DNA of 64,000 nucleotides, from positions 1 through 64,000 of IMG/VR virus record IMGVR_UViG_3300032073_000008, one strand, 5' to 3'. Positions 12,226 to 43,588 of the stretch are shown here, piece after piece. A program made the position numbers and the translations under genes. The first letter of the stretch is position 1. Every line of letters begins with the position of its first letter. The notes beneath the pieces are model-generated. The model worked only from the letters and a program-made list of their open reading frames with translations, was not told the DNA's origin and made no database searches. This DNA is from a virus.

Positions 12226-12230
12226 CAACA

Positions 12231-13658: not shown

Positions 13659-13935
13659 TATCTACGCTCTCTCTCAATTGTTGTTCAATAATATCGACAA
13701 GTATGTCTCCCATTATACTAATTGCTTCTTCAGAAGTCAAGTCAACATCTGTGGGGTTATCAATAGTGATTGTATTGTAGTCAAGTACAGCTTGACCATC
13801 TTCTTCTCTTTCATGAAAAGATACAGTGTCATACTGATAAGTGAGTCCCTCACAACTACCTTCCAGCACCTTAACAGCCCAATGATCTGCATGGAATCCT
13901 TCTGGCGATTCTACTAAATCATATTTAACTGACAT
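13621..13935 (-). CDS. Conserved small protein between uvsX and gp41 (104 aa)
   Basis: This acidic 104-aa protein begins MSVKYDLVESPEGFHADHWAVK and contains ITIDNPTDVDLTSEEAISIMGDILVDIIEQQL, a likely amphipathic helix near residues 65-92. It occupies the slot that T4 gives to gene 40, but I see no clear resemblance to gp40. It overlaps uvsX at the start and gp41 at the end, so all three are translated from one message. A homologue at this position in marine T4-like phages is recalled from memory. The function is unknown, and an accessory role in replication or recombination is inferred only from position. Confidence 0.75.
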   Translation of the reverse strand: MSVKYDLVESPEGFHADHWAVKVLEGSCEGLTYQYDTVSFHEREEDGQAVLDYNTITIDNPTDVDLTSEEAISIMGDILVDIIEQQLRESVDNAGTTDTETPTE

Positions 13936-14974: not shown

Positions 14975-15004
14975 AACTCTTCCTCAATTAAAAAATATTG
15001 TATA

Positions 15005-15033
15005 ATTATATATCATAACATATAGAAAGTCAA
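15005..15033 (-). promoter_or_regulatory. Sigma70-like early promoter for uvsX-gp41
   Basis: Minus strand TTGACT (15028-15033), a 17-bp spacer and TATAAT (15005-15010). The predicted start lies ~20 nt before the uvsX ATG. Confidence 0.8.
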
Positions 15034-15039
15034 TAACAA

Positions 15040-15303
15040 TTAGCTATTGTAGATCTTATCAATCAGATCACTAAACTCTTCCAATTTATTATTTCTATTT
15101 GGCCAATAGATGTAATCTTTTTCTGGATTTTTAGCCAGATTGTTTAGGAGCGGTTTGAATGTATTGTATAGATCAATACACTTTGCTTCCCATGTATCAG
15201 CAGTTTCTGCAGCTTTAGTTGCTTGTGTGCTTGCCTGCTGGACAACATCTAATTCATCTTCAGTGACGGCTGTGAAGCCAAAATCAAAATCGAAGTCACT
15301 CAT
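15040..15303 (-). CDS. Conserved small T4-like phage protein (87 aa)
   Basis: The protein opens MSDFDFDFGFTAVTEDELD and ends with a conserved-looking segment EKDYIYWPNRNNKLEEFSDL. I recall similar small proteins beside DNA polymerase and uvsX in many marine T4-like phages, none with a known function. It has a GAGGAAA ribosome-binding site and lies 12 nt after the polymerase C-terminal gene, so it ends that operon. It is acidic at the N-terminus and basic at the C-terminus, with no membrane segment. It may be an accessory replication factor, judged by neighbourhood only. Confidence 0.75.
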   Translation of the reverse strand: MSDFDFDFGFTAVTEDELDVVQQASTQATKAAETADTWEAKCIDLYNTFKPLLNNLAKNPEKDYIYWPNRNNKLEEFSDLIDKIYNS

Positions 15304-15315
15304 TTGTATTTCCTC

Positions 15316-16410
15316 TTATGCAAAAAAACTTTCTAACGAACTTTTCTTTTCAGACTGCCATCCAACCGACTTCAGAATATACTTTAGTGGTTCAAGGAAT
15401 GCTTTCTGAAACTGCAATTCGCGGTCTATGTAGGAGTTTAACTCAAATTCTTTGGGCAGTGTTGTCATAACACTGATGATATTTTGCCTTGTTGGATTAG
15501 GCAATTTCAAATAACAAAACTTAATCTTCTCACCATCTTTGATGGACTCATATTTTTTGGTGAGCTTCATATCACGAAGCATATGATTATATACCAACCC
15601 ACCACGAACATGAATTGGTGTTCCTTTAGGAATTGTCAGCTCATCACCCAATACTGTATACTTATTCAAATCAGAAATTGAACGAGGAAAGGCAATGTCC
15701 TCGAAGCTGAAAGTATCAAACTTTTCTCTGAATTCAGAAATATAACTCTGCACTTCATCTTCACCTTTTGTCATAATAATCTTGATGGCTTCTTTCAAAG
15801 CATCACGACAGACTGCTGGTGTTGATGACTTAACAGTCTCAATACCCATCATCTTCAATTGCGGTTCAGCATAACGCACACCCTCATTATCATACACATT
15901 CATCATGTAGCGTTTCTTAGCAGTCCAGATAGCTTTATCTGCAATCGCTTCACGCTTCATAAACATCTTTTGGGAATATGCGTTTGTTAGGTGTGCCAGC
16001 TCTTCATAACTTTTATCAATAAAAGGTTCCAACTTCTCAGCTGCAACTTTGTCCAAGAAATTGACGACTTTGACAGCATCACTTCCCTCTTCAAAGCATT
16101 TGCGTACAAGTTTGTCGAGATTGACATAAATTGAATCTGTGTCCGACGCAATAACATAATCAACTTCGTCTGTATCCAAGATCTTGTTGAGATATTCATT
16201 TACTCTCCTTTCAATCCATCTAATTGCTAACTGACCAGACAATGTAATTGCCTCTGCCTTTCGTACATCAAAGAATCGAAAGTATTTATTACCGACTGCA
16301 CCATAAGCTGAGTTGAGCTGAACCTTTTTTGCAAGTTGAAGATTCTTGTACTTGCTTATATCTTTAACAAGTTGCTTCTTCCGTTCAAGAAGTTCAGCTC
16401 TTTCAGTCAT
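15316..16410 (-). CDS. 43B: DNA polymerase gp43, C-terminal part (palm motif C, thumb)
   Basis: This is the C-terminal part of a family B DNA polymerase encoded as its own gene. Motif B K29-VQL-NSAYG (29-37) of the fingers and motif C SDTDS (89-93) with the catalytic aspartates D90 and D92 are present. The rest corresponds to palm and thumb, and the C-terminal LESFFA resembles a clamp-binding tail. The ORF starts at an ATG in a TAATG overlap with the 90-aa gene. The break lies in the fingers just before motif B, so the two halves together make ~848 residues, the size of intact relatives. They must assemble in trans. Confidence 0.95.
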   Translation of the reverse strand: MTERAELLERKKQLVKDISKYKNLQLAKKVQLNSAYGAVGNKYFRFFDVRKAEAITLSGQLAIRWIERRVNEYLNKILDTDEVDYVIASDTDSIYVNLDKLVRKCFEEGSDAVKVVNFLDKVAAEKLEPFIDKSYEELAHLTNAYSQKMFMKREAIADKAIWTAKKRYMMNVYDNEGVRYAEPQLKMMGIETVKSSTPAVCRDALKEAIKIIMTKGEDEVQSYISEFREKFDTFSFEDIAFPRSISDLNKYTVLGDELTIPKGTPIHVRGGLVYNHMLRDMKLTKKYESIKDGEKIKFCYLKLPNPTRQNIISVMTTLPKEFELNSYIDRELQFQKAFLEPLKYILKSVGWQSEKKSSLESFFA

Positions 16411-16682
16411 TATACTACAATCCCGCTTGTTGCTTGAATATATGCTTTCTCAACATCTTCATTGGTTTCAGTCATGAATACTGTTCCACCAGTATAGAAA
16501 GAAACTGAGTCAACATTTGCTTTACCTGTCGCACAAACGCCATGAGCAAATCCCATACCCTGCTCGCCATGGACAAGCATGCGTGGATCTTTGATAACAA
16601 TACTAGCATCTGTTTCTTCTTCAAACTTACCAACAAACTCTCCAGTGAGAGTTACTAATGAAACTACAGTTCCTTTCTTCAT
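16410..16682 (-). CDS. Small conserved protein inserted between the polymerase halves (90 aa)
   Basis: An intact 90-codon ORF begins MKKGTVVSLVTLTGEFVGKF, with a beta-rich Sm/OB-like N-terminus and a helix at the end (EDVEKAYIQATSGIVV). It overlaps the upstream polymerase half by ATGA and the downstream half by TAATG, so ribosomes could pass through all three. It carries no LAGLIDADG, GIY-YIG or HNH motif, so it is not a homing endonuclease. Similar stand-alone proteins occur in marine T4-like phages, from memory, which argues against it being polymerase debris. Its function, and whether it helps join the halves, is unknown. Confidence 0.85.
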   Translation of the reverse strand: MKKGTVVSLVTLTGEFVGKFEEETDASIVIKDPRMLVHGEQGMGFAHGVCATGKANVDSVSFYTGGTVFMTETNEDVEKAYIQATSGIVV

Positions 16683-18133
16683 AATTCTAATAACCTTTTG
16701 TTTATCTGTTCAAGTTCAGTCTGTGCTTCAAGCATTTTTTGCTTATAGCCCACACGCTCATTATACATCTTCTCCATCATCTCAGGCAAGAAACCTTGCT
16801 TGTCTTTTCTGAAGTATCTACCATTACCAGCCATAGCGAAACCATCTGGTGGTGTTTGTATATCACGATCAATTATATCCTCAACCGTGACATTTGTCAA
16901 CCACTCATCTTCAACAAATGTTTCGGGTGATATATTGTACTGCATGATAAGGTGAGGATATAGTGAGTTCAAATCAAAACTCATAACCCAATCATGCATA
17001 CCAACATGCGGATCTTTCACATAAGCACCAGCAAACTGAGAGTTTTTGATTGATTCGCTTTTTGGTGGTATGACAATATTCTTTGACATGAGATAATTAT
17101 GTATAAGAACATCCCACATTGTAACTTGAGTGAAGACATCGTTGTAGTTCACTTTGGCATCATAAGCAATCGCCAACGCACCTTCAATCAGCTTCATCTT
17201 ATCTTCAAGCCTATCAACAAGCTCAACATCCTTTATGTTATAGTCAATAAACTTTTTGTAATCTAGTTTGTAGAGTTGATTCAAGTTATCATACTCTGAA
17301 TAATCAATCTTCTTTTCGCCCAACTCAACTTCACCTATATGATCAAGACGATATGATTCCTGCTGTGAATATGTAAACTTCTTATACAGCTGGAGATAAT
17401 CAAGCAAAGCAATCCCAGTCAACTCATAGATTGTCTCTTCACGATTAAAGTTCCGAATGGTACGCTCTTTGATCCATCCATAAGGTGATAAACGCTTAAC
17501 AAACTTTTCATCAAATAATCTGCCAATACGGTTTACAAGATATGGAATATCAAAACCCTCAATGTTCCACCCAGTAACAATATCAGGATCAAGTCTTTGC
17601 CACAAAGCAACAAAGGCTGATAATAATTTCTTCTCATCTCGACAGTTTATGTAGCTGACATTATCCTTTCCGCTGTCATCATACTCACCAACACCCATTA
17701 CATAATATTGACGCTTACCGTTGCGTGTTAAGGATAGTGTGATTGCTGTAACTTCTTGATCAGCTTTTTCTGGAGCAGGGAATCCATCATCAGAGGCAAC
17801 CTCAATATCGATATTAGCAATACGAATAACATCTGTGTCATACTCGCTACCAAATCGCTCATTGACACAAACATGTGCCCATTTAGTTGAGCCATAGATC
17901 TTGAAGTTCGACACACCCTCATATTTTTGTACGAAATAACCAGCTTCACGAATATCACCAAGAGCGACTTCTTCAACATAGTCGCCCTCTAATGTTTTCC
18001 ATTTAGTTGGTTTTGGTGACGGAACATACATTTTAGGATTGTAATCGATCTTATGATCAAATCGTCTGCCGTCTTGATATCCACGGATGTTTACTTTGTT
18101 CCCACGGACATGAGCATGAGTATAAAAATACAT
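16679..18133 (-). CDS. 43A: DNA polymerase gp43, N-terminal part (exonuclease and palm motif A)
   Basis: This holds the N-terminal and 3'-5' exonuclease domains plus the first palm segment of a T4-type family B polymerase. Exo I is D109-x-E111 (NIDIEV), Exo II NIEGFD (190-195), Exo III Y298...D302 (YNIKD) and polymerase motif A DLNSLYP (387-393). All catalytic residues of these motifs are present. The protein ends in a charged coiled segment (EAQTELEQINKRLLEL) that would continue into the fingers of an intact enzyme. The TGA stop overlaps the next ATG. It must pair with the product of 15316-16410 for synthesis. Confidence 0.95.
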   Translation of the reverse strand: MYFYTHAHVRGNKVNIRGYQDGRRFDHKIDYNPKMYVPSPKPTKWKTLEGDYVEEVALGDIREAGYFVQKYEGVSNFKIYGSTKWAHVCVNERFGSEYDTDVIRIANIDIEVASDDGFPAPEKADQEVTAITLSLTRNGKRQYYVMGVGEYDDSGKDNVSYINCRDEKKLLSAFVALWQRLDPDIVTGWNIEGFDIPYLVNRIGRLFDEKFVKRLSPYGWIKERTIRNFNREETIYELTGIALLDYLQLYKKFTYSQQESYRLDHIGEVELGEKKIDYSEYDNLNQLYKLDYKKFIDYNIKDVELVDRLEDKMKLIEGALAIAYDAKVNYNDVFTQVTMWDVLIHNYLMSKNIVIPPKSESIKNSQFAGAYVKDPHVGMHDWVMSFDLNSLYPHLIMQYNISPETFVEDEWLTNVTVEDIIDRDIQTPPDGFAMAGNGRYFRKDKQGFLPEMMEKMYNERVGYKQKMLEAQTELEQINKRLLEL

Positions 18134-25384: not shown

Positions 25385-25958
25385 TGTTGATGAGCTTTTG
25401 CATGCGCATCACATCCATAACAATATCATGGCGTGGGTCATGTCCAACAAATTTATCAGCTAACTCCTCAGGAACAAAAGTGTTCTTTAGTGGAGAGCCA
25501 TAAGACAAACCTTCAATGAATGATCGAGTATCTCGAATCAACCACCAGTCAAATGGATCTTTCTCATCAGAGTGAGCAAGCAGTGTGCGAAGAAAGATGG
25601 GATCAAATGAATTACCTCTTGTCCAAACCTTTCTTACTGGTTCAACATCAATCTTATCACAGAACCAATTATACAACTCTTTAATAGATTTGTCAAGAGG
25701 AGACGGTTTCAATAAAGCCTGAGCTTCTTTGGGTTGATTCTTCCACCAGTCTAGTGTACTCTTTTGGATAGTGCGACCAAGCTCAATCTGTTCAGCAACA
25801 TCAAAGCGAATCATATGTGAATCATCAAGCAACTCTTCATATTCATATGGGTTAGTTAAGAATCTTTTCTCATCATATTGCAAGACAGCCAAGCTAACCG
25901 CAACACCATTCACCATATCTTGACTTAATGTTTCGAAGTCATATATCACACTATTCAT
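25368..25958 (-). CDS. dexA: DexA-like 3'-5' exonuclease (DEDD family)
   Basis: This is an RNase T/DnaQ-fold exonuclease. Motif I is D7-x-E9 (IYDFETLS), motif II lies around WTRGNSFDPIFL (~113-124), and motif III HDPRHDIVMDVMRM supplies the final His and Asp. T4 DexA degrades DNA from the 3' end and has 227 residues; this protein has 196. It sits between the clamp-loader subunit genes, overlapping gp62. A role in host DNA degradation or nucleotide salvage is inferred from T4. RNA substrates cannot be excluded. Confidence 0.85.
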   Translation of the reverse strand: MNSVIYDFETLSQDMVNGVAVSLAVLQYDEKRFLTNPYEYEELLDDSHMIRFDVAEQIELGRTIQKSTLDWWKNQPKEAQALLKPSPLDKSIKELYNWFCDKIDVEPVRKVWTRGNSFDPIFLRTLLAHSDEKDPFDWWLIRDTRSFIEGLSYGSPLKNTFVPEELADKFVGHDPRHDIVMDVMRMQKLINIVAGE

Positions 25959-30088: not shown

Positions 30089-30567
30089 GGTGATTCCTCA
30101 TTATTTAAATCGTGATTGTGTAATGCAATCAATGCATAGTGTAATACTTTCAATAAATCCTTGCGGTTGTAACCGTCTTTCCTGCCATAACGCTGAACAT
30201 ACTTCAATACATTACCCAACGCAAACCCCTCGCCATGACCACAGTCAATAATGAACTCTGTTGACTGAAACTTATTCTTTGAATAGTGCTCAGAATAAGT
30301 AGCATTAACATAGTCACGCAATTCATCAATCAACTCACCCTCATTAAATTTGTAGAGTGTTATGTCAAAAACATCAGAAGATTTGTTAGAAGGAACTAAT
30401 GGCTCATTATAATGTTCCAAAGAGTCATTATACCTTATTGGCTTGTTTCTGTCAACCTCAGAATAATATTCAGCAGTGTGTTCATAATTATCTTTCTGTT
30501 TGGAAGATGATTTTTTTCTCAGCTGATTCCATTCCTGAGGAGTAGCATCGTCAATACTTTTGCCCAT
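30085..30567 (-). CDS. DUF3310-containing protein (160 aa)
   Basis: The C-terminal block FALGNVLKYVQRYGRKDGYN followed by RKDLLKVLHYALIAL is the DUF3310 signature found in many phages near nucleotide or replication genes. The N-terminal ~70 residues are polar. The ATG lies in a TAATG overlap with the glycosyltransferase-like gene and the stop overlaps gp45 by 4 nt. The family has been linked loosely to nucleotide kinases, but no P-loop is visible here, so the function is open. Confidence 0.8.
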   Translation of the reverse strand: MGKSIDDATPQEWNQLRKKSSSKQKDNYEHTAEYYSEVDRNKPIRYNDSLEHYNEPLVPSNKSSDVFDITLYKFNEGELIDELRDYVNATYSEHYSKNKFQSTEFIIDCGHGEGFALGNVLKYVQRYGRKDGYNRKDLLKVLHYALIALHNHDLNNEESP

Positions 30568-31538: not shown

Positions 31539-32705
31539 TTAAGCAGCAATTTCTTCAGGCTCTTCAGCCATGTCATCAACTGTGCCAGCATCAGCATCAA
31601 TCTTTGAATAGAGATCAAGGAATGATGTTTTGGTGTCTTCATCAAAACGATTAATACACATATTAATCGCAGTCATCCGACCACCTTTATCACCAAAGAT
31701 CTTATATGCTTTGGCAATATGAACAAGACGACGAGTCGAGATAACTTCATCAATACCGCCATCATAAAAAGTCTTGCGGATAATGTCAGCCCAATCAACA
31801 AGTTTGGTTACAAACTCAGAGTCATCTAGACCGAGACTAGCGAACACTTCATTCAAGATTCGTTTCTCAGTGCTCACTGGAGGATACTCCTGCTCGCAAG
31901 TAATAGGGAATCTTTCAAGGAATGCTTCATTCAGCACATTAGTACCAATAAAGCGACCATCATCAGATCCTTTACCTTTGGTGTTAGCAGTAGCGATAAC
32001 ATTAAACCCAACAGCAGGATTAATATACTCACCAGTCTTTTTGATAAAATATCCTTTACCCTCAAGGATAGACTGAAGACACATAATCTTTGCTGGATTA
32101 CCCAGATCGATCTCATCCAGAAGTAATAAAGCACCACGCTCCATTGCCTTGATAACTGGACCTTTGAAGAAACGAGTGTCACCGTCAACAAGACGGAAAC
32201 CACCAATCAGGTCATCTTCATCAGTCTCAATTGTAAAGTTTACACGGATGACTTCACGCTTCAACTGAGCACATGCTTGTTCAACCGAGAATGTTTTACC
32301 ATTACCAGACATACCAGTAATGAAAGATGGATAGAACATACCAGACTTAATGACTTGCTTCAGTGTCGAGAAATTACCAAAGGGAACAAACAAAGGATCT
32401 TTGGCAGGGACAAGATTTTCAGTGAAGCCATCAGTGACAACATTCATCTCAGCAACAAGTTTGTTAGGCTCAAGATTAGTCACAGGAGCTGGAGCAGACG
32501 GTGCGAGAGGAGCAGGAGAGCTCACTGCAGTCGTCTTTGGAGCAGTTGAAGGCAGGTTATACAAACCACGATCAACACGGAGAGCAGTCGCGAAATACTT
32601 ACTCGGCACTTTCACGCCAAGCTCACGAGCAACTCTTTTGGTTTCAAGACTAGGAACAGGATTATTCCCATACTTTTCTTTCAGGATAGAATATAGATCA
32701 GTCAT
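31539..32705 (-). CDS. cobS: CobS/MoxR-type AAA+ ATPase (388 aa)
   Basis: Marine T4-like phages commonly carry this gene annotated as CobS. Walker A is GMSGNGKT (131-138), a Walker B LLLLDEID follows near 195, and an ATANTKGKG sensor region near 240 matches the MoxR/CobS clade. The first 100 residues hold a small helical domain and a P/A/T-rich linker. The ATG at 32703-32705 follows GAGAGA; an upstream ATG at 32720 lacks a ribosome-binding site. MoxR ATPases work with vWA proteins, and one is encoded just upstream. A chaperone or remodelling role is more likely than cobalamin synthesis, since no other Cob genes are present. Confidence 0.88.
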   Translation of the reverse strand: MTDLYSILKEKYGNNPVPSLETKRVARELGVKVPSKYFATALRVDRGLYNLPSTAPKTTAVSSPAPLAPSAPAPVTNLEPNKLVAEMNVVTDGFTENLVPAKDPLFVPFGNFSTLKQVIKSGMFYPSFITGMSGNGKTFSVEQACAQLKREVIRVNFTIETDEDDLIGGFRLVDGDTRFFKGPVIKAMERGALLLLDEIDLGNPAKIMCLQSILEGKGYFIKKTGEYINPAVGFNVIATANTKGKGSDDGRFIGTNVLNEAFLERFPITCEQEYPPVSTEKRILNEVFASLGLDDSEFVTKLVDWADIIRKTFYDGGIDEVISTRRLVHIAKAYKIFGDKGGRMTAINMCINRFDEDTKTSFLDLYSKIDADAGTVDDMAEEPEEIAA

Positions 32706-32742
32706 ATAGGTCTCTCTCATTTATTAATCAATTTCAAATACA

Positions 32743-32830: not shown

Positions 32831-35071
32831 TTAAGCAATCGACTCTATCAAGTCACTCAACATTTTACGCGACTCTTTTCTAGAACCATTCGCTTTCTTA
32901 AAGGCAGTGCGGATCTTTGCTTTTGTTGCATCACTACCGACCGCAATCGAAGTATTGCTCACTTCAAGATTTTTACCACCATGAATTAAGAACAGTCGAT
33001 CATAACCAAAGTTGTCTTCAAGCATAACAAACTTTTCTTTTTTGGCTCTCATATGATATGATTTAGCATCATACCAGTCCATACTGTTAGGAGCATTACG
33101 AGTCCATTTGTTTATACTACTCTCCATAATCCGATAACCAATAACAGTAGAACCAGTCCTTTCACGATACATATCTAAAAGGACTTTGGTGATCGCATCA
33201 CCATATCCAGTCACACGATAGCGTTTCTTGGTCACAGGATCATTTACATACAACACTGCAGTGCCACTTCTATTATGATAATAATTAGTTTGTGAACCCC
33301 ATTCTTTGTCAGGGTTAGTGAATTCCATAGGATGACTATCACCATCAGTCAAGAATATTGTATTCACAATATCAAGACGATTTTTCTTTTGGAAATCATC
33401 ATGCACTTTCATTGCAGCCATTATAGTCTCATCAAGAGGAGTACCGCTCAAAGCCAACCCTCTAGGAAAACGAAACCTGTTCATTTTCTTTTGAGCTTCC
33501 CAGCTGTATTTGTTGCGACGAGAGACACGGATATCATAATATCTCCCGACACAAAGAACGAATTTCATCATGTCATTGAAAGTTTGACGATTCATATTGT
33601 TATTGAAAAACTCTAATAATCTGAAACAATGATGATAACGCAAAACACTATCTCGTTTTTGTTGGGTCGCACTTTCAGAGTCAGAACCATACCAATTATT
33701 TGTAAAAGCATAAACACGGTATGGTATCTTCACCTGACGGCAGAACAAAACTAAATTCAACATTTGATCAATCGTGGCTTTAAGATCTTCCATCATTGAG
33801 CCAGACCAATCAACATACATGATTATACCATGACTTTTACCATCTGGTGTCACTGTTACTTTGCGGAAAATATCATCATTGTAACGATAGCTGTTCATCT
33901 TGACAGGATCAATCACACCAGTCTTTGCCACAGTTTGTCTAGAGTAAGCTGATGCACTTTTCTTCATCTCAAACTCTTTTGCCATGTAATTTACGCTTCT
34001 CTTATTATTATTCATGAAGTCATTAACATATCCTTCACCCAGATCATTCATCGCTTGATCAAACGAATCAGGCTCTTGAACTTTGAAATTTTCTAGAATT
34101 TCTTTTGCTGATATAATCAAGTCATTAATCGGTGCGTCATTCAAGAACACATTAGTGATTTTTATATCATCATCATCACCATGCTCAGCAGCAATATTGT
34201 TTCTTAATGACTGATCAGTTTTTGATTCAAGATCTTCTTCAGATGATTCACCACCTGTCTGTCCTGTCTGGTTATCATCAGAATCATCTTCATCATCTTT
34301 CCAGAAGTCATCTTGATCTTCATCAGAACTCCAGAAGTCACCATCATCTTCATCTTCATCTTCATCATCAGGAGTGCTACCAGATGAATCACCTGATTCA
34401 CTTTCATCTTCATCATCAGAATCATCAAAATCATAAGAGCCACTGCCATCAGTATCTTCTTGACTCTCATCTTTTGCCATTTCATCCATAGCTTTCTGCT
34501 TGTCAGCATTTTCTTCTTCTTGCTTTTGTTTACAGAAATCATACAAACGCTCAGTCAGGTCAACAACCTGATCCCATGTTTCAAGAGTTTCAATCTCATC
34601 AATCCATGGTTGCTCATCTGCCTCAATGCGAACACCAGCAGAACGACCGCATTTAAAATAAGTGTTGATACGATCAATAAGACCATAATTGTTTATTTGT
34701 TTGATGTCACCACCAAAGAAACCATCAGCAAGCATGCGTCTGTATGAAGAAACAAATGAAGTTCGCAGACCTTGATATCGTTTTTGAATTAGCTTTTCAA
34801 TCCTAGCATCTTCAATAACATTTAAAAAAGATCTGAAAGTTTGACCACGCTTATGAGTAGACTCATGCCATCCCTCTTCTGGAGTATACAAAGCATGACC
34901 AACCTCATGACCAACCAAATGATCATAAGTGTCAGACCTCATATCATCCCACATTGGTAGAGTAAGGATGCGGTCACGAACATTAAATGAAGCAGTCTTT
35001 GCTTGCTTATGAGAAACAGTAATGTTTTCAGTAGCAAGTAGACGAGCCAATGTATCTTTAGAAGTATTCAT
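32831..35071 (-). CDS. CobT-like protein: zinc-peptidase motif, acidic linker and vWA domain (746 aa)
   Basis: The start is the ATG at 35069-35071. Residues 55-59 read HEVGH, a zincin HExxH motif, followed by NVIEDARIE with a possible third ligand. Residues 201-283 are an extremely acidic D/E/S linker. The C-terminal vWA domain has the metal-site motif DWSGS (421-425) and TDGDSHP later. The arrangement matches phage proteins labelled 'CobT' or 'peptidase' partnered with the MoxR-type ATPase next door. The pair could unfold and process a target protein. The target is unknown. It has its own promoter, matching that of the ATPase gene. Confidence 0.85.
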   Translation of the reverse strand: MNTSKDTLARLLATENITVSHKQAKTASFNVRDRILTLPMWDDMRSDTYDHLVGHEVGHALYTPEEGWHESTHKRGQTFRSFLNVIEDARIEKLIQKRYQGLRTSFVSSYRRMLADGFFGGDIKQINNYGLIDRINTYFKCGRSAGVRIEADEQPWIDEIETLETWDQVVDLTERLYDFCKQKQEEENADKQKAMDEMAKDESQEDTDGSGSYDFDDSDDEDESESGDSSGSTPDDEDEDEDDGDFWSSDEDQDDFWKDDEDDSDDNQTGQTGGESSEEDLESKTDQSLRNNIAAEHGDDDDIKITNVFLNDAPINDLIISAKEILENFKVQEPDSFDQAMNDLGEGYVNDFMNNNKRSVNYMAKEFEMKKSASAYSRQTVAKTGVIDPVKMNSYRYNDDIFRKVTVTPDGKSHGIIMYVDWSGSMMEDLKATIDQMLNLVLFCRQVKIPYRVYAFTNNWYGSDSESATQQKRDSVLRYHHCFRLLEFFNNNMNRQTFNDMMKFVLCVGRYYDIRVSRRNKYSWEAQKKMNRFRFPRGLALSGTPLDETIMAAMKVHDDFQKKNRLDIVNTIFLTDGDSHPMEFTNPDKEWGSQTNYYHNRSGTAVLYVNDPVTKKRYRVTGYGDAITKVLLDMYRERTGSTVIGYRIMESSINKWTRNAPNSMDWYDAKSYHMRAKKEKFVMLEDNFGYDRLFLIHGGKNLEVSNTSIAVGSDATKAKIRTAFKKANGSRKESRKMLSDLIESIA

Positions 35072-35100
35072 ATGATAGTCTCTCAACAAAATAGACGCCC

Positions 35101-35129
35101 ATTCTACCATATCAGGAGACCTGAGACAA
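35101..35129 (-). promoter_or_regulatory. Sigma70-like promoter of the CobT-like gene
   Basis: Minus strand TTGTCT (35124-35129), a 17-bp spacer and TAGAAT (35101-35106), ~25 nt upstream of the ATG. Confidence 0.7.
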
Positions 35130-35288: not shown

Positions 35289-35381
35289 TTAACTTAATGC
35301 AATCAGGCAGTTAGCGATTGTTACATAAACCGACACTTGAAACGCCCAACAGAAAAAGCAATCAGTTTTGCTATTTTCCAT
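35289..35381 (-). CDS. 30-aa hydrophobic micro-protein downstream of hsp20
   Basis: A 30-codon ORF reads MENSKTDCFFCWAFQVSVYV then ends with a hydrophobic TIANCLIALS. It has a perfect AGGAGG Shine-Dalgarno four bases before the ATG and starts 16 nt after the hsp20 stop. Three cysteines and a membrane-like helix are visible. Part of its Shine-Dalgarno lies in the 3' arm of a 9-bp hairpin whose 5' arm is inside hsp20, which suggests that translation of hsp20 opens it. Function unknown. Confidence 0.5.
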   Translation of the reverse strand: MENSKTDCFFCWAFQVSVYVTIANCLIALS

Positions 35382-35388
35382 ATTTCCT

Positions 35389-35421
35389 CCTCGAAAATTA
35401 TTTAATTTCAATTTTTCGAGG
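35389..35421 (-). promoter_or_regulatory. Hairpin over hsp20 stop / micro-ORF Shine-Dalgarno
   Basis: CCTCGAAAA and TTTTCGAGG form a perfect 9-bp stem (35389-35397 with 35413-35421). The 15-nt loop contains the hsp20 stop codon, and the arm abuts AGGAGG. It may couple translation or act as a heat-sensitive lid. Confidence 0.6.
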
Positions 35422-35814
35422 ACGCTTCTCTTCTGGCAAATTGACCTTTAGGTTCACTACAAGGATTCCTTTGTCTAGAGTCGCTCCGACTACTTCGACA
35501 TATTCAGACAGACGAAAAGTTCTCTGAAATCTTTTTGTGGATATTCCTTTGTGTAGATACTCAACATCAGTACCGTGGAATTGATCCCCAGTGATGTTCA
35601 AAGTTCTTTCATCTTGTTCAATGGTCAGATCTTTCATATCGAACCCAGCTACTGCCACTTCAATGGCATATTCATGCTCATCTACTTTAACCACATTGTG
35701 TGGTGGGTATGTATCTTTGGCGTTTCGATTGATGAATTCTAATTCATTGAAAAGGTGGTCAAACCCAACAAATGCTGCTCGTGGGAAAAGACTCGGTGTT
35801 TTAATACTCGTCAT
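35398..35814 (-). CDS. hsp20: Small heat shock protein Hsp20
   Basis: This is an alpha-crystallin-domain chaperone, common in T4-like marine phages. The beta-sandwich signature appears as YAIEVAVAGFDMKDLTIEQD (~48-67) and VVGATLDKGILVVNLKV (A-x-x-x-GvL motif, ~108). The C-terminal KIEIK carries the I-x-I anchor used for oligomerisation. The N-terminal arm FDHLFNELEFINRN resembles phage Hsp20s. An AAGGAG ribosome-binding site and a TATAAATA late promoter precede it, so it is expressed late and may assist capsid or tail folding. Confidence 0.93.
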   Translation of the reverse strand: MTSIKTPSLFPRAAFVGFDHLFNELEFINRNAKDTYPPHNVVKVDEHEYAIEVAVAGFDMKDLTIEQDERTLNITGDQFHGTDVEYLHKGISTKRFQRTFRLSEYVEVVGATLDKGILVVNLKVNLPEEKRPRKIEIK

Positions 35815-35878
35815 AATGCTCTCCTTTTGTTTAAAGCAAGATTAATAAGTGAACCCGATTATTCGGCATCCACTCACC

Positions 35879-35886
35879 TATTTATA
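35879..35886 (-). promoter_or_regulatory. T4-type late promoter of hsp20
   Basis: Minus strand TATAAATA, ~65 nt upstream of the hsp20 ATG and just after the end of the kinase gene. Confidence 0.75.
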
Positions 35887-35892
35887 CTGACT

Positions 35893-36441
35893 CTACATAA
35901 GATTTTCAATAAAGCCAATAATTTTTTTCGTATCTTCAGGGACATTGTGTTCAAAAGCATGGACACATCCAGCTTCGCCCATCAATATTTTTTCCCCAAA
36001 CATATCTTCAATGTTAGCAACTTTCGTTACTCGCCCATTGATAAATGTTTCTGATTGATCAGAACCTCTATCAGCATAACGCTGTTCACGAACAGCATCA
36101 TCTGTTTTTAATACTATAATTGTTAGATCATGCCCTGCTCTCTTCACAGCCTCAAAGAACTTAGAAGAAGTCAATCTGTCACCCTCGAACACTACGACAG
36201 GTGATGGATTGTTTTCTAGGTATTCAATTGCCATTGGCTGTACTGCCATTGACAGTTTATCAGTACCAGCAAACACTTCTCCTTCATCATATTTACCAAA
36301 CAAACGGATATCTCCAGAAACATAACCATCAAGCAACTTAACTGGAGTATCTTTAGTCCACTCTCGTTTTGACATCCACTCACGCATAAGTGTTGTTTTT
36401 CCAGTTCCTGGAATTCCAATAATACCAATCACTTTACTCAT
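35893..36441 (-). CDS. P-loop kinase of the hypermodification cluster (182 aa)
   Basis: Walker A is GIPGTGKTT (9-17). A Walker B-like strand ending VVFEGDRLTSSKFF (~83-96) and a lid with RYADRGSD (~126) place it among small nucleotide or polynucleotide kinases. It is the last gene of a five-gene unit and overlaps the dioxygenase stop by 4 nt. In thymine-hypermodifying phages a DNA kinase phosphorylates 5-hydroxymethyl-pyrimidine in DNA so that the group can be displaced. The same role is proposed here. A free-nucleotide kinase is the alternative. Confidence 0.75.
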   Translation of the reverse strand: MSKVIGIIGIPGTGKTTLMREWMSKREWTKDTPVKLLDGYVSGDIRLFGKYDEGEVFAGTDKLSMAVQPMAIEYLENNPSPVVVFEGDRLTSSKFFEAVKRAGHDLTIIVLKTDDAVREQRYADRGSDQSETFINGRVTKVANIEDMFGEKILMGEAGCVHAFEHNVPEDTKKIIGFIENLM

Positions 36442-37826
36442 GAAAAGAATCCTTCTAATGATGACTTTGTCACAACAGCTTCTGGATGATATTGCGATAA
36501 CATTCCTTCACCGCCTTTCTGTTTCAGATAATCATACCACTCATCTTCAGCCCACATATTTGGCGAAACACCATTCCAAAATTCTTTCCACAACTTGTGG
36601 TTCTTATTGAGTCTGCGATCATCAACATATTGTCTACGCAGTTTTTCATATTCCCAAGAACCAACCTCAAGCATTTTTTCACGGAAGTAGCATACAAGAG
36701 ATATGCGTTCCATTTCTTCAATAGTGGTTCCAGCAGGTGGTTTCAGTTCAGTGTTACCATGAATGCCACCATGATTATTGATCAACAAAAGATCTCCTGG
36801 ACGGATATTGATACCTACACGAAACTCTGGAAGGACAAGATAACCACCTTCCCAATTCTTTTCTTTAGCAACAACAGTAAGGTTTGAAAATCCTTCATTC
36901 AAATCACCAGCATCTCTGTGAGCTGCAGTTCTGAAGTTTTTATTTACAGTAATCGTAGTGAACGGTGTATCTTCACCAGCAACACGAAAGCGTGGATCTA
37001 GCTTGCTTGCAGCTTCGTTTTGAATACCATAACGAATAGGTAAATGCTCCTTAAATTTGTCAGCTAATTGACGCATGAAAGGATAGCACTTCTCATAGAC
37101 AGGATAGTTGTTCTCTGTATACGCAGTTGCTCGACCGTATGGAATACGAGGATATCGATCAAAGAATCCAGCAATACCTGACAACACCATGTTAGCATAT
37201 GTTGTCTCAGAGATATAGTTCTTTTGAGTTGCCTTTGCGTCTTTCTGAGCATCCTCTGCTGACATACCTTGCCATTCAGCAACCTTGTCATTGAAGAATG
37301 ATTCGTAATTATAACCACTATCAGTGATCTTAGATCTGATCCAAACTATACCACGAGATTCACCTGCTGTAATTGAAGCATGTTTTGCTCTGATTCTTTC
37401 TACTGGATCAGTGTCATCTTCAAACAGAGAAACTTCACGCTCAGCAAAGTGCTTCATAATATCAAGCTGTTCTTCAGTTACCCAATCACGACCGCCTTGC
37501 TTTGCTCCTTTTGGACCAGCAGCAAGACCACGATTTTGTGTAGGTAATGCAGCACCTAATAATCCTTCATAAGCACCGTGCTGTTGTTCTTCAGTAAAAA
37601 CATTTTTGCGAAACTTAAAGATAATGTTATCTTCATTATTCTCACCACCAAACCCAGCAGGAGCATAGAAGTCAGTATCTTCTTCACAAATAAAATCCCA
37701 GTCAGTATCTTCCATATATTGACCGAGTTTGTGTTCACAATCATCCCAAAACTTGGCTGTAATGATTCTGACATTGTTTACATTATCTACCTTAACATCA
37801 TACTTTTCGTTTATCACACCAATCAT
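36438..37826 (-). CDS. TET/JBP-type 2OG-Fe(II) DNA dioxygenase (462 aa)
   Basis: The C-terminal half carries the TET/JBP signature: a TTITVNKNFRTA strand, iron ligands H303-R-D305 (AAHRDAGD), WEGGYLVLPEFRVGINIRPGDL (~325-345), the distal His H356 (GGIHGNTE) and the 2OG arginine R374 in ERISLVCYF. This order and wording match JBP1/2 and phage TET/JBP enzymes that hydroxylate the methyl of thymine or 5-methylcytosine in DNA. The first ~200 residues are a separate, unassigned domain. It overlaps genes on both sides by 4 nt. No cytosine methyltransferase is in the window, which slightly favours thymine as substrate. Confidence 0.85.
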   Translation of the reverse strand: MIGVINEKYDVKVDNVNNVRIITAKFWDDCEHKLGQYMEDTDWDFICEEDTDFYAPAGFGGENNEDNIIFKFRKNVFTEEQQHGAYEGLLGAALPTQNRGLAAGPKGAKQGGRDWVTEEQLDIMKHFAEREVSLFEDDTDPVERIRAKHASITAGESRGIVWIRSKITDSGYNYESFFNDKVAEWQGMSAEDAQKDAKATQKNYISETTYANMVLSGIAGFFDRYPRIPYGRATAYTENNYPVYEKCYPFMRQLADKFKEHLPIRYGIQNEAASKLDPRFRVAGEDTPFTTITVNKNFRTAAHRDAGDLNEGFSNLTVVAKEKNWEGGYLVLPEFRVGINIRPGDLLLINNHGGIHGNTELKPPAGTTIEEMERISLVCYFREKMLEVGSWEYEKLRRQYVDDRRLNKNHKLWKEFWNGVSPNMWAEDEWYDYLKQKGGEGMLSQYHPEAVVTKSSLEGFFS

Positions 37827-38833
37827 ATCATAAATCTCTCTATTCCAACATTACTCATTTCATTTGTAAAAGTATTCATATGGTCTATCTTCCCAGTGTC
37901 TAGGAATATCTCCATTTTACTCTTACTTATCGAATTAGTCAAGTATTCATTTCTCAATGTCTCTTTTCTAGCATCCCACATGGGTGTCCAGTCAATACCA
38001 TCCCATCCATCTCTCTCCACTTGCTTTATTTCTTCAGCTTGTCTGTCAATATAATAACCAAGATAACGACCTCTACTCTTGCGAAACAGTTTCTTAAATG
38101 AACACAGTGCTGTTTCCATAGCAAAAAAGTCTGCTTTGCTCTCAGCATTTGGGTGTGTGCGTTTTACATCTTCGAGTATTTTCTTTCCTTCTCCTTCCAT
38201 CCATTGTATTTGATCATCTTCGAGCTTTTTATTCACCCAATCATCTTTACCTAAAGCATAACAAAGACCATTCCGATGAGATCGAGATCCAGAATAGTCA
38301 TGTAACCATAGACTTGGAACATCAACATTGAGACCAGCACACTGCTTTAGAGTTTGGATATAAAACCAAGATGTGTATCTTCCGAACTTGTGTAATGAAG
38401 TTACAGAATCCCAAACTTTTTGGAAGTTTTGATATTTGTCGCCACGACATAACTCTTCAAATGCATCTTCTTGTTTCCTACCACCAACCCATTCTTTATA
38501 GGAAACAAATTGATCAGCAAGATGACCTTTATTCCATTTTGTATCTGTTTGATATCTGAGACGCGAATAGTTTTCATTGTTCCATTCACGCAAACGATCA
38601 ACACCAACCAACTCCATATCAGGGAACTCATTCCAGATAAGGTATGCTGTTGGGAAGTTGTATGTTGTTCCATATAACCAACAGAGCCATAACTTCTGTT
38701 CTGTGTTATATTCAAACCGATCAAAGAAGTAATTTGTGAGATACAATGCTGAGTCACAATCTTCTATCTCAAGACTCCACTTAAACCAGTTGACAAATGC
38801 TTGTCTACGATGTTCACTTAATCTATAATCCAC
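37823..38833 (-). CDS. Alpha-glutamyl/putrescinyl-thymine pyrophosphorylase-like protein (336 aa)
   Basis: The helical protein starts at a GTG (TAGTG overlap with the GNAT stop). The block LYGTTYNFPTAYLIWNEFPD (~54-73) followed by RLREWNNENYSRLRYQTDTKW and KGHLADQFVSYKEW resembles the aGPT-PPlase/HMUDK-helical group described by comparative genomics of DNA hypermodification. In such systems these proteins are predicted to act on the pyrophosphorylated or phosphorylated hydroxymethyl group and add an amine or amino acid. It is flanked by the dioxygenase and a GNAT, matching that guild. The assignment is from recalled motifs and needs a profile search. Confidence 0.65.
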   Translation of the reverse strand: MDYRLSEHRRQAFVNWFKWSLEIEDCDSALYLTNYFFDRFEYNTEQKLWLCWLYGTTYNFPTAYLIWNEFPDMELVGVDRLREWNNENYSRLRYQTDTKWNKGHLADQFVSYKEWVGGRKQEDAFEELCRGDKYQNFQKVWDSVTSLHKFGRYTSWFYIQTLKQCAGLNVDVPSLWLHDYSGSRSHRNGLCYALGKDDWVNKKLEDDQIQWMEGEGKKILEDVKRTHPNAESKADFFAMETALCSFKKLFRKSRGRYLGYYIDRQAEEIKQVERDGWDGIDWTPMWDARKETLRNEYLTNSISKSKMEIFLDTGKIDHMNTFTNEMSNVGIERFMI

Positions 38834-39489
38834 TAAAAGAATTCCTCTAGAGTGTTTGGCTCATCACCTATTAATTTATCACGCATCCAAAACTCTCCTA
38901 CAGAAGAAATAGCTTCTTCTACAGTAGCAGTCTTTTTCTTACCAAAGCCATGAGACTCAAGCGATTCATCAAACAATTGTTTGATCACCTTTGGATCTTT
39001 AGGCAAAGCCAGATGCGGGACATTAATTGCTGTTGCCCTAAATGTGCACTGCTCCCTGATAGAAGGAAACAGTGGTTGATCAGAACGCAACGACCCAGTT
39101 GGATCAACAGCCCAAAATATCAAACCATTTCTTTTATGCCAAGTTATAGAAGATGGAGTGCAAGATATTTTCAAACGACTCATGCCATTATTAAAAGCAT
39201 CACTCATTACTCTTTCCCAGATAGCTGTAGCATATCCCTTTCCTTCATGACCTTGCCTAGTTACAATCTCATATAGATTAATATATCTCGATCTTTGACT
39301 ATAAGTAGCAAACACAAATGCAACCATTTCGCCATCAACCTCTAAGGCAAATGGCTTATTATCTTTTTCATAGTTTTTAAAACGAAACCACAAACTGTGT
39401 GATGAATTGAGGAACTTTGTATTTTTTCCTTCAGGGGAGTTCTCAATGACTTTCTCAATCATCTCTTGTGAACATCTTACTATGCGCAT
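38833..39489 (-). CDS. GNAT-type acetyltransferase (218 aa)
   Basis: A GNAT core is visible. NKPFALEVDGEMVAFVFATY is a beta-strand pair, LYEIVTRQGHEGKGYATAIWERVM (~72-95) carries the acetyl-CoA pyrophosphate loop Q/RxxGxG/A, and SITWHKRNGLIFW is the motif B region. The C-terminal third is extra. It uses an AGAGACTTA-type ribosome-binding region. In the operon it lies between the glutamine amidotransferase and the aGPT-like protein, so it could acylate an amino group placed on a modified base. Other GNAT substrates are possible. Confidence 0.8.
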   Translation of the reverse strand: MRIVRCSQEMIEKVIENSPEGKNTKFLNSSHSLWFRFKNYEKDNKPFALEVDGEMVAFVFATYSQRSRYINLYEIVTRQGHEGKGYATAIWERVMSDAFNNGMSRLKISCTPSSITWHKRNGLIFWAVDPTGSLRSDQPLFPSIREQCTFRATAINVPHLALPKDPKVIKQLFDESLESHGFGKKKTATVEEAISSVGEFWMRDKLIGDEPNTLEEFF

Positions 39490-40172
39490 TGTAAGTCTCT
39501 CACTAATGCACCACCACGCAATGGAGAAGATTTCTCTAGCTTTCCATTGTATGTGTATGTTACATACATGTCTGTTCTTTGTTGATTTGTAATTGCACTT
39601 CTTTTTAGAATATCTTTTGTTGATGCGAATACAATACCATTATTTCGCTCACTATACCATAGTGGTCTTGCTTCATTTCTAAATCCAGTTAGACTCTTAT
39701 CTTTTTTGATACGACAGACAGCCATACTTGATGGGTAAAAATCATTCAATGGATCATTACCAGCCTCATATGATTTCAATATCAATTCACTGTCATTAGC
39801 TGTTTCAGTGTTATATTTCCACTTCTCTTTATCTTCTTGTGATATAACACCATTGTGAACAATACTTTGATCACCATTAGAGAAAGGTTGATTGTATCGA
39901 AGATCAGATGTTGAATAGCGAATATGACCAATAAGGTAGATACCACCATCCTCATTTATCATACTCTGAATTGGATATTTTGCGAGGAACTCATCACAAG
40001 GGATGCCCTCTTTTATCGTATATATCTTAGAATCTTTGACATATGATACACCAGTCGCATGTTTCCCTCTTATCATAGATTCGCGGAAAATACGCTCTAC
40101 CAGTTTAACATTCTCAATACTACCACGACTGACAGAGGATCTCTCTAACCAAACGCCTATCACACCACACAT
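39480..40172 (-). CDS. Class II glutamine amidotransferase, stand-alone glutaminase domain (230 aa)
   Basis: An Ntn-hydrolase glutaminase with catalytic Cys2 (MCGVIGVW). It has GHIRYST (~101-107), VHNGVI (~124) and ANDSEL (~144), the conserved motifs of PurF/GlmS/AsnB-type domains, which release ammonia from glutamine. No synthetase, isomerase or PRTase domain is attached, so the ammonia must be used by a partner. It is the first gene of the hypermodification unit, has an AAAGGG ribosome-binding site and is driven by a perfect consensus promoter ~25 nt upstream. It probably supplies nitrogen for amination of a base. Confidence 0.88.
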   Translation of the reverse strand: MCGVIGVWLERSSVSRGSIENVKLVERIFRESMIRGKHATGVSYVKDSKIYTIKEGIPCDEFLAKYPIQSMINEDGGIYLIGHIRYSTSDLRYNQPFSNGDQSIVHNGVISQEDKEKWKYNTETANDSELILKSYEAGNDPLNDFYPSSMAVCRIKKDKSLTGFRNEARPLWYSERNNGIVFASTKDILKRSAITNQQRTDMYVTYTYNGKLEKSSPLRGGALVRDLQCA

Positions 40173-40200
40173 AATATACCCTTTATGTAAATAAACAGAT

Positions 40201-40229
40201 ATTATACATTATCAAATGTAATTTGTCAA
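40201..40229 (-). promoter_or_regulatory. Perfect sigma70 promoter of the hypermodification operon
   Basis: Minus strand TTGACA (40224-40229), a 17-bp spacer and TATAAT (40201-40206), inside the end of the deformylase gene. The following leader AAAGGGTATATTAT (40171-40184) recurs at the gp47 start. Confidence 0.88.
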
Positions 40230-40745
40230 GTTCTTCTTTCTTAGCTTATCTAACTTCTTTTTCTGTTTCTTTGCCTTTTCAACATGATATGATGATGCTT
40301 TGCTCAAGAAGTTAATCCCAATAAGGTGGTCATATTCGTGCTGAAAACACTTAGATGTAAAGTCAGTCAAATTTTTTGTTATTGTGACACCGTTATAATT
40401 TGAGAATCTAGCTCTTATATTTACAGGTCTTTTTACTGGGATGAAGATTCCAGGAAAACTCAAACACCCTTCTTCTTCTGTCAAGACCTCATCAGAGTAC
40501 CCAACAATCCTTGGATTGAACACTGGTAAGACATCATCTGGTTTAGCTGGTAATCCAATAACAAATACTGATAAATTTATTCCGCATTGGTTTGCTGCCA
40601 GACCAACACCGCTGTTTTCAAGCATTGTAGCCTTGAGCCTTTCAAACAATACAACTGGATCCATCTGTGGGTTTTGAAAATCAAACTCTTGTGTTGGTGT
40701 TCTTAAACACTGATGTGAGCTTGATACTAATTTATATGGCTTCAT
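40212..40745 (-). CDS. def: Peptide deformylase
   Basis: All three PDF motifs are intact: GVGLAANQCG (46-55), EGCLS (92-96, metal-ligand Cys94) and QHEYDHL (135-141, ligands His136 and His140, catalytic Glu137). The enzyme removes the N-formyl group from nascent proteins and is common in marine T4-like phages. There is a basic C-terminal helix (KAKKQKKKLDKLRKKN) that many phage PDFs lack. The ATG overlaps the gp46 stop (ATGA). It is the last gene of the gp47-gp46 unit. Confidence 0.95.
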   Translation of the reverse strand: MKPYKLVSSSHQCLRTPTQEFDFQNPQMDPVVLFERLKATMLENSGVGLAANQCGINLSVFVIGLPAKPDDVLPVFNPRIVGYSDEVLTEEEGCLSFPGIFIPVKRPVNIRARFSNYNGVTITKNLTDFTSKCFQHEYDHLIGINFLSKASSYHVEKAKKQKKKLDKLRKKNLTNYI

Positions 40746-42457
40746 GCTGCTATCCTGCTAAATGATTTAAACTTCTCAAAGCGTATTTGACTGCGGAACT
40801 TATCAGTCAACACATCACCTTTGGTATGTGTGATAATAAAGACATTGGTGTCAGACATGTTGTTTAGTAGTTTAGTCAACTCATCTGTTCCAGTTAAGTC
40901 AAGAGAGTTATCAAACACCTCATCAAGTATCAATAGGTTGGTGTTAGTAGAGTTTTTTAATTTGGCTATTGCTCTCCATGTAAGTAGTAGAGCAATATCA
41001 ATACGAGTCTTTTCACCCTCAGAGAAACTTGCATATGAAAACTCATCACGATGACGACTTTTGATTATCTCATTAAACTCCTCATCAAGCTCAAAGTTCA
41101 CAAAGAAGTCTAGAGCTGATAGATACTTATTAACTAGCTTGTTCATAATAGGAACATACTGCTTAATTATTTTAGACTTGATGCCACCGTCTTTCAGCAT
41201 AGTTGAGGCAACCTCAAATAACGCTTTATCATCAGATAGATCTGACGCTTGCTTCTTGTAAACATTCAAGTCTTTCTTGAATTGTTTAAGTTTACCACTA
41301 GAATCGCTGTCGGCAGTAGCCTGCTGTTCAGCCTCTTTGATCTTTTTCTCCACACCACTAATCTGTTTACCATACAAATTTATCTGGGTCTGGCAATCGC
41401 GTATTTTATTCTGAACATCTTGTATCTCATACTGCACAGTGTTCATCTCGCTCAGTTCTTTGTGTAGAATATCATACTCTTCATTTAATTGTTCAACAGC
41501 TTCTTGCGTCTTGTGTAGTATCTTAGTAGTATCATCAACCTTCTGTTTCTTAACCTTCATGTCAATGATCTGTTCGCAAGTCGGGCAGTTATCATTCTTC
41601 TCATAAAACTTAATTCGCTTCTTAGCTTTTGATGACTTATCTTCCAGCTTATCAAGAAGTGATGTAATCTTATTTGACTTAGCTTCAAACTTCCCTTTGT
41701 GAGAGATTGAATCAATCAGAGTGTCAACTGTCATGGTAAGAGCAATACAAAGATTGTCAGCATCCTGCTTTGATTCAACATAACCTTGTGCCTCTTCTTT
41801 TAAGGAGCTGATCAGCTTGTTAGCATCAGATGTGACCTTCTTCAAGTAGTCTTGCTGTATATCTATTTTCTCTTGAGTTATGTCAAGCTGATATTGAATA
41901 TCGGATATACTTCGCTTGTTCTCAGATACTCGCTCTTTCAATAGCATATTCATTGTTGAGAATATCTGGATATCTAGCAGGTCTTCAATAACTTCTCTGC
42001 GATCACGAGTAGACAGCTGCATGAATGGAGTGAATGAAGCATTACCCAAGATAACAATCTGAGTGAATGACTTGTAGTTCAACTTTAGAATAGTGTTCTC
42101 TAGGATAAGCTGATAGTCTCTCGCATTTCCAGGTTGGTCAATCATCTTACCATTCTTGTATATCTCAAAGAATGCTGGCTTCATACCTCTACGAACTTTA
42201 TATCCAACTGTACCAATAGAAAACTCAATAGAAACCTCACAACCCTTTTCATTGATGCTGTTACAAAGCAATGCCTTATTGACTTTGCGGAATGGCTTAT
42301 TGAATAGTACAAAGGTCAGTGCATCCAGTATAGTCGACTTCCCAGCACCGTTTTCTCCAGTTATAACTGTGCTTGGAGAACGATTCAACTGTATTTCAGT
42401 CGCCACATTACCTGTGCTCAGGAAATTTTTATAAGATAACTTCTTGAATTCAATCAT
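40742..42457 (-). CDS. 46: Recombination endonuclease subunit gp46 (Rad50/SbcC-like)
   Basis: This is an ABC-type SMC-like ATPase with Walker A GENGAGKS (34-41), a coiled-coil hairpin with a zinc hook CPTC (291-294), the signature SFSEGEKTRIDIALL near residue 480 and Walker B LLILDEVFD near 515. It forms the end-resection nuclease with gp47 that starts recombination-dependent replication. At 571 aa it is close to T4 gp46 (560). It follows gp47 by 10 nt. Confidence 0.96.
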   Translation of the reverse strand: MIEFKKLSYKNFLSTGNVATEIQLNRSPSTVITGENGAGKSTILDALTFVLFNKPFRKVNKALLCNSINEKGCEVSIEFSIGTVGYKVRRGMKPAFFEIYKNGKMIDQPGNARDYQLILENTILKLNYKSFTQIVILGNASFTPFMQLSTRDRREVIEDLLDIQIFSTMNMLLKERVSENKRSISDIQYQLDITQEKIDIQQDYLKKVTSDANKLISSLKEEAQGYVESKQDADNLCIALTMTVDTLIDSISHKGKFEAKSNKITSLLDKLEDKSSKAKKRIKFYEKNDNCPTCEQIIDMKVKKQKVDDTTKILHKTQEAVEQLNEEYDILHKELSEMNTVQYEIQDVQNKIRDCQTQINLYGKQISGVEKKIKEAEQQATADSDSSGKLKQFKKDLNVYKKQASDLSDDKALFEVASTMLKDGGIKSKIIKQYVPIMNKLVNKYLSALDFFVNFELDEEFNEIIKSRHRDEFSYASFSEGEKTRIDIALLLTWRAIAKLKNSTNTNLLILDEVFDNSLDLTGTDELTKLLNNMSDTNVFIITHTKGDVLTDKFRSQIRFEKFKSFSRIAA

Positions 42458-43559: not shown

Positions 43560-43588
43560 ATTATACTACAATTCAATACAAGTGTCAA
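43560..43588 (-). promoter_or_regulatory. Perfect sigma70-like promoter of gp47-gp46-def
   Basis: Minus strand TTGACA (43583-43588), a 17-bp spacer and TATAAT (43560-43565), overlapping the gp55 3' end. Confidence 0.88.

Follow-up and report, generated by a model that had tools for sequence, protein, structure and literature searches.

Thymidine hypermodification of phage DNA by way of a 5-hydroxymethyluracil (hmU) intermediate is established (PMC6449724; PMC11721090), and 5-aminomethyl-deoxyuridine (5-NmdU) is a described phage DNA hypermodification, according to the title of doi 10.1093/nar/gkae784 as cited in PMC11946847. A trio of TET/JBP dioxygenase, amino acid:DNA transferase (ADDT) and kinase is also already known, from mycobacteriophage Hangman and from Rhodococcus phage Tonitrus, whose set comprises TET, ADDT/aGPT-PPlase2 and kinase (PMC11955845). 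Here we analyse a window of 64,000 nucleotides (positions 1 to 64,000 of the IMG/VR virus record IMGVR_UViG_3300032073_000008), in which a trio of this kind is encoded together with a class-II glutaminase and a GNAT acetyltransferase. We are highly confident that this five-gene operon serves DNA-base hypermodification.

The operon consists of five minus-strand open reading frames (40172-35893) with successive overlaps of 10, 1, 4 and 4 nt. In order from the promoter, these encode the class-II, N-terminal nucleophile (Ntn) glutaminase (39480..40172, 230 aa), the GNAT (38833..39489, 218 aa), the ADDT-family transferase (37823..38833, 336 aa, with a GTG start), the TET/JBP Fe(II)/2-oxoglutarate dioxygenase (36438..37826, 462 aa) and a P-loop kinase (35893..36441, 182 aa). 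Families were assigned with Pfam profiles, using the gathering score as cut-off, and all five proteins exceed it: 38.9 bits against 27 for GATase_6, 34.6 against 20.7 for Acetyltransf_1, 84.5 against 26.2 for PF18724, 82.6 against 34.9 for Tet_JBP (PF12851) and 65.6 against 27 for Ploopntkinase3 (PF18751). An earlier note on this DNA had described the same five overlapping genes as a hypermodification guild, reading them as a glutaminase with Cys2, GHIRYST and VHNG, a GNAT, an aGPT-PPlase-like helical protein, a TET/JBP enzyme with H303-x-D305, H356 and R374, and a P-loop kinase. The layout, the motifs and four of the family calls hold, and the guild itself is borne out by scores above cut-off, intact catalytic residues and recurrent linkage. 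The third call has to be replaced, as the helical protein belongs to PF18724, that is, to ADDT and not to aGPT-PPlase in the narrow sense.

The dioxygenase carries the HxD...H iron ligands H303, D305 and H356 and the distal, 2-oxoglutarate-related R374, all invariant in an alignment of 22 sequences. Its structural model (predicted local distance difference test, pLDDT, 80) gave 26 fold matches in the PDB at E<=0.001, every one of them to CcTet, NgTet1, TET2 or CMD1, and the next match after these DNA TET/JBP enzymes was AlkB at E 0.015. Since the matches at this threshold are solely DNA-acting TET/JBP enzymes, the assignment of 36438-37826 to another oxygenase family can be set aside. The closest of the phage-collection matches shares 51% identity. 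Four records label their phage TET protein 'SNF2 DNA repair protein', which conflicts with Pfam.

In the glutaminase, the signatures Cys2, GHIR85YST, H106-N107-G108 and N126-D127 are invariant, except for I84, across a 15-sequence alignment, so that the Ntn catalytic residues C2, R85, N107, G108 and D127 form a complete class-II site. Its best solved relatives are PurF amidophosphoribosyltransferases. No close relative was found in 50,697 phage records (31% identity being the best among the matches listed), and a cellular origin was considered and rejected, since two bacterial metagenome-assembled genomes gave matches of merely 27-28%. In all 15 glutaminases of the alignment, a variable linker leads to an invariant C-terminal DLQ (window 39480-39500), which looks like a partner-protein docking tail.

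Sequence comparison gave no relative of the ADDT with a solved structure. Its AlphaFold2 model is all-helical (pLDDT 89), and its best solved fold is PUGT (8z2m/8z2n; template modelling scores of 0.54/0.62 for 8z2m), with a Foldseek probability of 0.99-1.00 and an E-value that is weak alone (0.19-0.33). Weak matches to AGOG DNA glycosylases appear further down the list. PUGT, which the PDB title gives as the 5-phosphomethyl-dU (deoxyuridine) glycinyltransferase of phage PaMx11, itself belongs to PF18724. Profile-profile comparison of ADDT with PUGT yielded no usable alignment, and hence no mapping of residues onto PUGT. Thirteen residues are common to the ADDT and the PF18724 proteins of Cr30, a kuttervirus, Cygsa01 and Hangman, and 34 clade-specific near-invariant residues set the ADDT clade apart, a distinctness that may leave room for a nucleophile other than a free amino acid. 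The kinase, with an intact GIPGTGKT P-loop, belongs to the family of the kinase found beside TET and ADDT in Hangman. Its best PHROG, phrog_800, is labelled 'terminase small subunit', again in conflict with Pfam. PF18751 kinase and PF18724 ADDT flank TET on either side, so a putative hydroxymethyl-base DNA kinase and an ADDT are both present, as in pathways of the ViI/M6/PaMx11 type. The GNAT, of a type that we call GNAT1, has a GKGYA acyl-CoA loop.

We searched IMG/VR for relatives, obtaining 45 loci with the TET and 11 with the glutaminase; an ADDT profile search gave 218 relatives, 80 of which were kept, forming 41 clusters at 95% identity. Each of the 22 ADDT clusters with 3.8 kb or more of sequence to either side has glutaminase, ADDT, TET and kinase as its core; this core is complete in 34 clusters and comes in more than one gene order. 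Since the core recurs so widely, and in several orders, the five-gene block is far beyond chance; the variety of orders also means that the linkage of the core is not positional inertia. Accessory genes vary: GNAT1 alone occurs in 22 of the 34 clusters, an amidoligase-like gene with a different GNAT in 10 (8 of them also with a ParB-like gene), the amidoligase with GNAT1 in one, and neither in one. The operon recurs in dozens of uncultured relatives, but none of the sequenced phages in culture has it.

Loci of the same TET clade that lack ADDT have sugar genes instead, either a TAGT glycosyltransferase, often with an epimerase (L018, L021, L028 and L050), or a UDP-galactopyranose-mutase-like gene (L030, L037 and L007, with a 343-aa unknown protein and a GLF-domain protein). 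The 20 sugar-type TET loci all lack both glutaminase and kinase. On the TET tree, the presence of ADDT changes six times by parsimony, and at least four changes are forced by well-supported branches. These repeated changes, and the sugar-type loci without glutaminase, mark TET as a hub, and indicate that the glutaminase travels with ADDT and not with TET.

In the sister operons (L032:12048-14865, L041:6233-9060, L120, L126 and L128), additional genes stand between glutaminase and ADDT: one for an amidoligase-like protein, one for a GNAT of a second type, and one for a protein of 430-446 aa that bears a ParB-like DGN motif and whose family (c30) appears ParB-like from its sequence. The amidoligase call is tentative, because its basis is a sub-threshold Pfam hit (PF12224), seen only in the five sister-architecture records, together with a short stretch that matches LUZ24 gp18. 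We considered an amidoligase as a hidden partner of the glutaminase and rejected it: none was found in any searched record of the window's architecture type, and family c37 has no homologue in the contig itself. The constant partner of the glutaminase therefore appears to be ADDT, a constant member of the core; no fusion of the two genes occurs among the loci examined. It is likely that the two proteins act together in one pathway.

These observations suggest the following post-replicative scheme, whose reactions we infer from gene content, families, folds, conservation, linkage and absences in the searched records. The TET/JBP enzyme, as a thymine-methyl hydroxylase, would convert thymine in phage DNA to hmU; its family is clear, and the thymine target is our proposal. 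The kinase, as a hydroxymethyl-base DNA kinase, would yield 5-phosphomethyl-dU, as its family and linkage suggest. The glutaminase would act as ammonia donor by releasing ammonia from glutamine, with which ADDT would displace the phosphate, swapping 5-CH2-O-phosphate for nitrogen to give 5-aminomethyl-dU. The GNAT would then N-acylate this amine, giving 5-acetamidomethyl-dU, whereas in the sister operons this amine would instead be extended by an amidoligase and the second GNAT. Phage DNA carrying the product would be shielded from nucleases. Because the glutaminase is as constant as ADDT, and the variable amidoligase and GNAT are of kinds able to act on an amine, we lean slightly towards ammonia itself as the nucleophile. 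More tentatively, glutaminase and ADDT could together constitute a glutamine amidotransferase on DNA that, with TET and kinase, takes thymine to 5-aminomethyl-uracil in three steps without nucleotide-pool chemistry, nitrogen taking the place of an oxygen of the base and the amine serving as a common handle for an acetyl group (GNAT1) or, in sister phages, for extensions made by the amidoligase. From thymine to the N-acetyl form, we consider the scheme as a whole to be evenly balanced between right and wrong.

The choice of thymine as the target rests on absences. The C5-cytosine methyltransferase domain PF00145 was not found in the 110,317-base virus record that is the source contig, in 50 related records including the complete Cr30, DLP6 and C48C1, or in 15 further records, two of which are contigs 162 and 154 kb long (66 in total with the source contig); it is also missing from three more distant TET phages. 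The positive control for this search consisted of control genomes, with no phage among the positives. PF00303, the thymidylate synthase (TS) fold, is missing from 65 of the 66, Cr30 being the exception. The TS-fold dUMP hydroxymethylase that supplies hmU in the ViI/M6/PaMx11 pathway is thus missing here, where TET is present instead, and the phage-encoded methyltransferase that accompanies 5-methylcytosine (5mC) hypermodification by phage TET was not found on these possibly incomplete contigs. These phages appear to make neither 5mC nor precursors of hmU or 5-hydroxymethylcytosine (hmC), so thymine is the simplest substrate, and it is probably the TET target. The earlier note had left the choice between thymine and 5mC, and had proposed a search for a cytosine-C5 methyltransferase; the negative outcome of that search in the 66 records favours the first and led us to set the second aside as the less likely. 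Its statement that the pathway departs from the nucleotide-level hmC route of T4 agrees with the lack of a TS-fold hydroxymethylase in the contig.

Several observations weigh against parts of this scheme. Ammonia use by ADDT is a proposal, whereas ADDT relatives of known function use amino acids, glycine in the case of PUGT as given in its PDB title. ADDT could accordingly couple phosphomethyl-dU to an amino acid, in the manner of ViI, M6 or PaMx11, with glutaminase and GNAT tailoring the product later, for example by amidation of a carboxylate (together with the amidoligase in sister operons) or acetylation of the amine. The pairing of an amidoligase-like gene with the second GNAT in 10 of the 34 core-complete clusters would fit such tailoring, by an amidoligase signature that is itself weakly supported, and for CmoY homologues a link between an amidase domain that hydrolyses glutamine and a DNA-base ligase has been put forward, there for cytosine (PMC12783734). 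However, in the window's architecture the glutaminase would be left without an ATP-dependent partner in the searched records; it is constant across clusters while the amidoligase is not, and the five-gene block contains no amino-acid-processing pyridoxal phosphate or flavin adenine dinucleotide (FAD) gene. We therefore regard addition of an amino acid as rather unlikely, though the most serious competitor to addition of ammonia.

The second group of objections concerns the base. The argument for thymine is one from absence on mostly incomplete contigs; most records are fragments, and the phage's own genome may hold a methyltransferase elsewhere. TET D308 lies three residues past the HxD aspartate, the same spacing as that of N1387 in TET2; it aligns near this N1387, which we take to be a base-side residue. 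As a base-specificity residue, D308 does not discriminate thymine from cytosine. Furthermore, a passage of PMC11404850 citing Burke 2021 describes a published phage TET that acts on cytosine/5mC. Here 5mC, made by the host or by an unseen methyltransferase, would be oxidized by TET to hmC, then phosphorylated and aminated to 5-aminomethyl-cytosine derivatives. This chain is improbable given that PF00145 is missing from all 66 records, three of them complete genomes, that a TS-fold pre-replicative methylase or hydroxymethylase was found in Cr30 alone, and that PUGT, the fold match of ADDT, acts on a dU base.

Least probable of all is that glutaminase and GNAT serve another pathway, such as cell-envelope or protein modification, with only TET, kinase and ADDT modifying DNA: distant GATase-II homologues do lie beside amidoligase and RimK-like genes in phages such as LUZ24, with no ADDT in the neighbourhood seen, and both Hangman and the neighbourhood in Cr30 have TET, ADDT and kinase but no glutaminase; however, the presence of the glutaminase in every full-flank ADDT cluster, in varied gene orders, and in no sugar-type TET locus speaks against such a separation.

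The five-gene block is probably its own transcription unit, because a perfect promoter, and diverged versions of it in relatives, precede the first gene. This sigma-70-type promoter (TTGACA-N17-TATAAT; 40201..40229, minus strand) matches the consensus at 12/12 positions, is the sole such site within 35300-41000, is separated from the first ATG by 28 nt and overlaps the 3' end of a peptide deformylase gene. In L010, L015 and L092, diverged counterparts occur 58-60 nt ahead of the first gene, and in some relatives whose first gene is TET (for example, L108 and L119) it is preceded by similar sites. The window holds five perfect TTGACA-N16-18-TATAAT sites against 0.13 expected, all on the minus strand (16872-16900, 25668-25696, 30427-30455, 40201-40229 and 43560-43588), as if the phage drove several units from strong host-type promoters. 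The operon's neighbours are the peptide deformylase upstream (39-nt gap) and an Hsp20 gene downstream (78-nt gap). Portal, major head, sheath, terminase, helicase and SbcCD-like proteins of the contig match PHROG families, and these structural and replication matches agree with the T4-type backbone that the earlier note had read. An ATPase-like protein at 31539-32720, whose PHROG carries the label 'porphyrin biosynthesis', adjoins a 759-aa gene at 32831-35110 with a VWA-like sequence; the two may form a CobS/CobT pair of the cobaltochelatase kind, such as other T4-like marine phages carry.

We found no published account of the glutaminase-ADDT-TET-kinase core, in a comparison outside which Iyer 2013 and Lee 2022 lie. 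The glutamine-dependent, TET-initiated route looks new, while the aminomethyl-dU product is known. An acylated aminomethyl-pyrimidine would thus not be the novelty that the earlier note supposed, as 5-NmdU has been described and the PaMx11 locus already pairs ADDT with a GNAT. It is possible that a genuinely new reaction lies at the centre of the operon; a glutamine-dependent amidotransferase that works on DNA bases would, to our knowledge, add a reaction type not seen before in DNA. If the scheme holds, the phage armours its genome chemically by a new route, and its enzymes might be used to put a primary amine on DNA thymine with simple cofactors. More broadly, the guild would hand the TET output to exchangeable amine or sugar modules. 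A TET that works without any C5-methyltransferase would make a phage thymine hydroxylase directly testable, and if TET acts on thymine, the sugar-carrying sister loci would amount to a phage counterpart of base J in trypanosomes, or would lead to hmU with an unusual sugar. Caulobacter phage Cr30 (L005), as a cultured phage, offers a laboratory entry point: it encodes TET, ADDT, TAGT-like and kinase-like proteins at 8992-17885, with a TS homologue elsewhere in the genome and no glutaminase detected near the TET/ADDT set.

Among known systems, PurF would resemble the operon in mechanism. In PurF, glutamine-derived ammonia displaces pyrophosphate, and glutaminase plus ADDT would be a DNA-acting parallel, sharing the class-II glutaminase domain and the proposed displacement of phosphate by ammonia. 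The acceptor enzyme differs, being ADDT on DNA instead of a phosphoribosyltransferase on phosphoribosyl pyrophosphate; the operon's activities lie on separate polypeptides, and the homology is in the glutaminase domain only. Phage TET cytosine hypermodification (Burke 2021) likewise joins a phage TET/JBP enzyme to downstream decorators, and relatives of the operon TET carry TAGT, but no C5-methyltransferase was found in the searched records of the clade described here and no glycosyltransferase lies beside the operon TET. The ViI-like Ackermannviridae, which make 5-(2-aminoethoxy)methyl-deoxyuridine (5-NeOmdU), share ADDT, a 5-hmdU DNA kinase (HMUD2) and post-replicative build-up on hmU (PMC6449724). 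Their hmU comes from the nucleotide pool and not from TET, their kinase is of another family, their ADDT is 30% identical, and no glutaminase is annotated in the ViI-like region seen. Hangman (Coopervirus) and Tonitrus have TET, ADDT and kinase together, and a ParB-like gene as appears in the sister operons, whereas glutaminase or GNAT is not annotated in their block; the TET hit of Hangman gp2 is below the Pfam cut-off.

A close parallel in predicted product is PaMx11, whose thymidine hypermodification locus (for N-alpha-GlyT/5-NmdU) encodes ADDT/PUGT (gp46), an FAD oxidoreductase (gp47), a GNAT (gp48), a P-loop protein (gp49), HMUDK_hel (gp50) and a TS homologue (gp51). The PaMx11 FAD enzyme reportedly releases 5-NmdU, which the GNAT is said to acetylate. 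Both loci unite a PF18724 transferase, a P-loop kinase-like gene and a GNAT in one block, both have a predicted product with an amine on the 5-methyl group, and the fold of the operon's ADDT matches gp46/PUGT. They differ in gene order, in the GNATs (sequence comparison of GNAT1 with gp48 shows no specific similarity) and in having TS homologue plus FAD oxidoreductase in PaMx11 versus TET plus glutaminase here. TET may thus replace the TS-type hydroxymethylase, and the glutaminase may replace glycine and the FAD enzyme, such that convergence of the two pathways on 5-aminomethyl-dU and its acetyl form is plausible.

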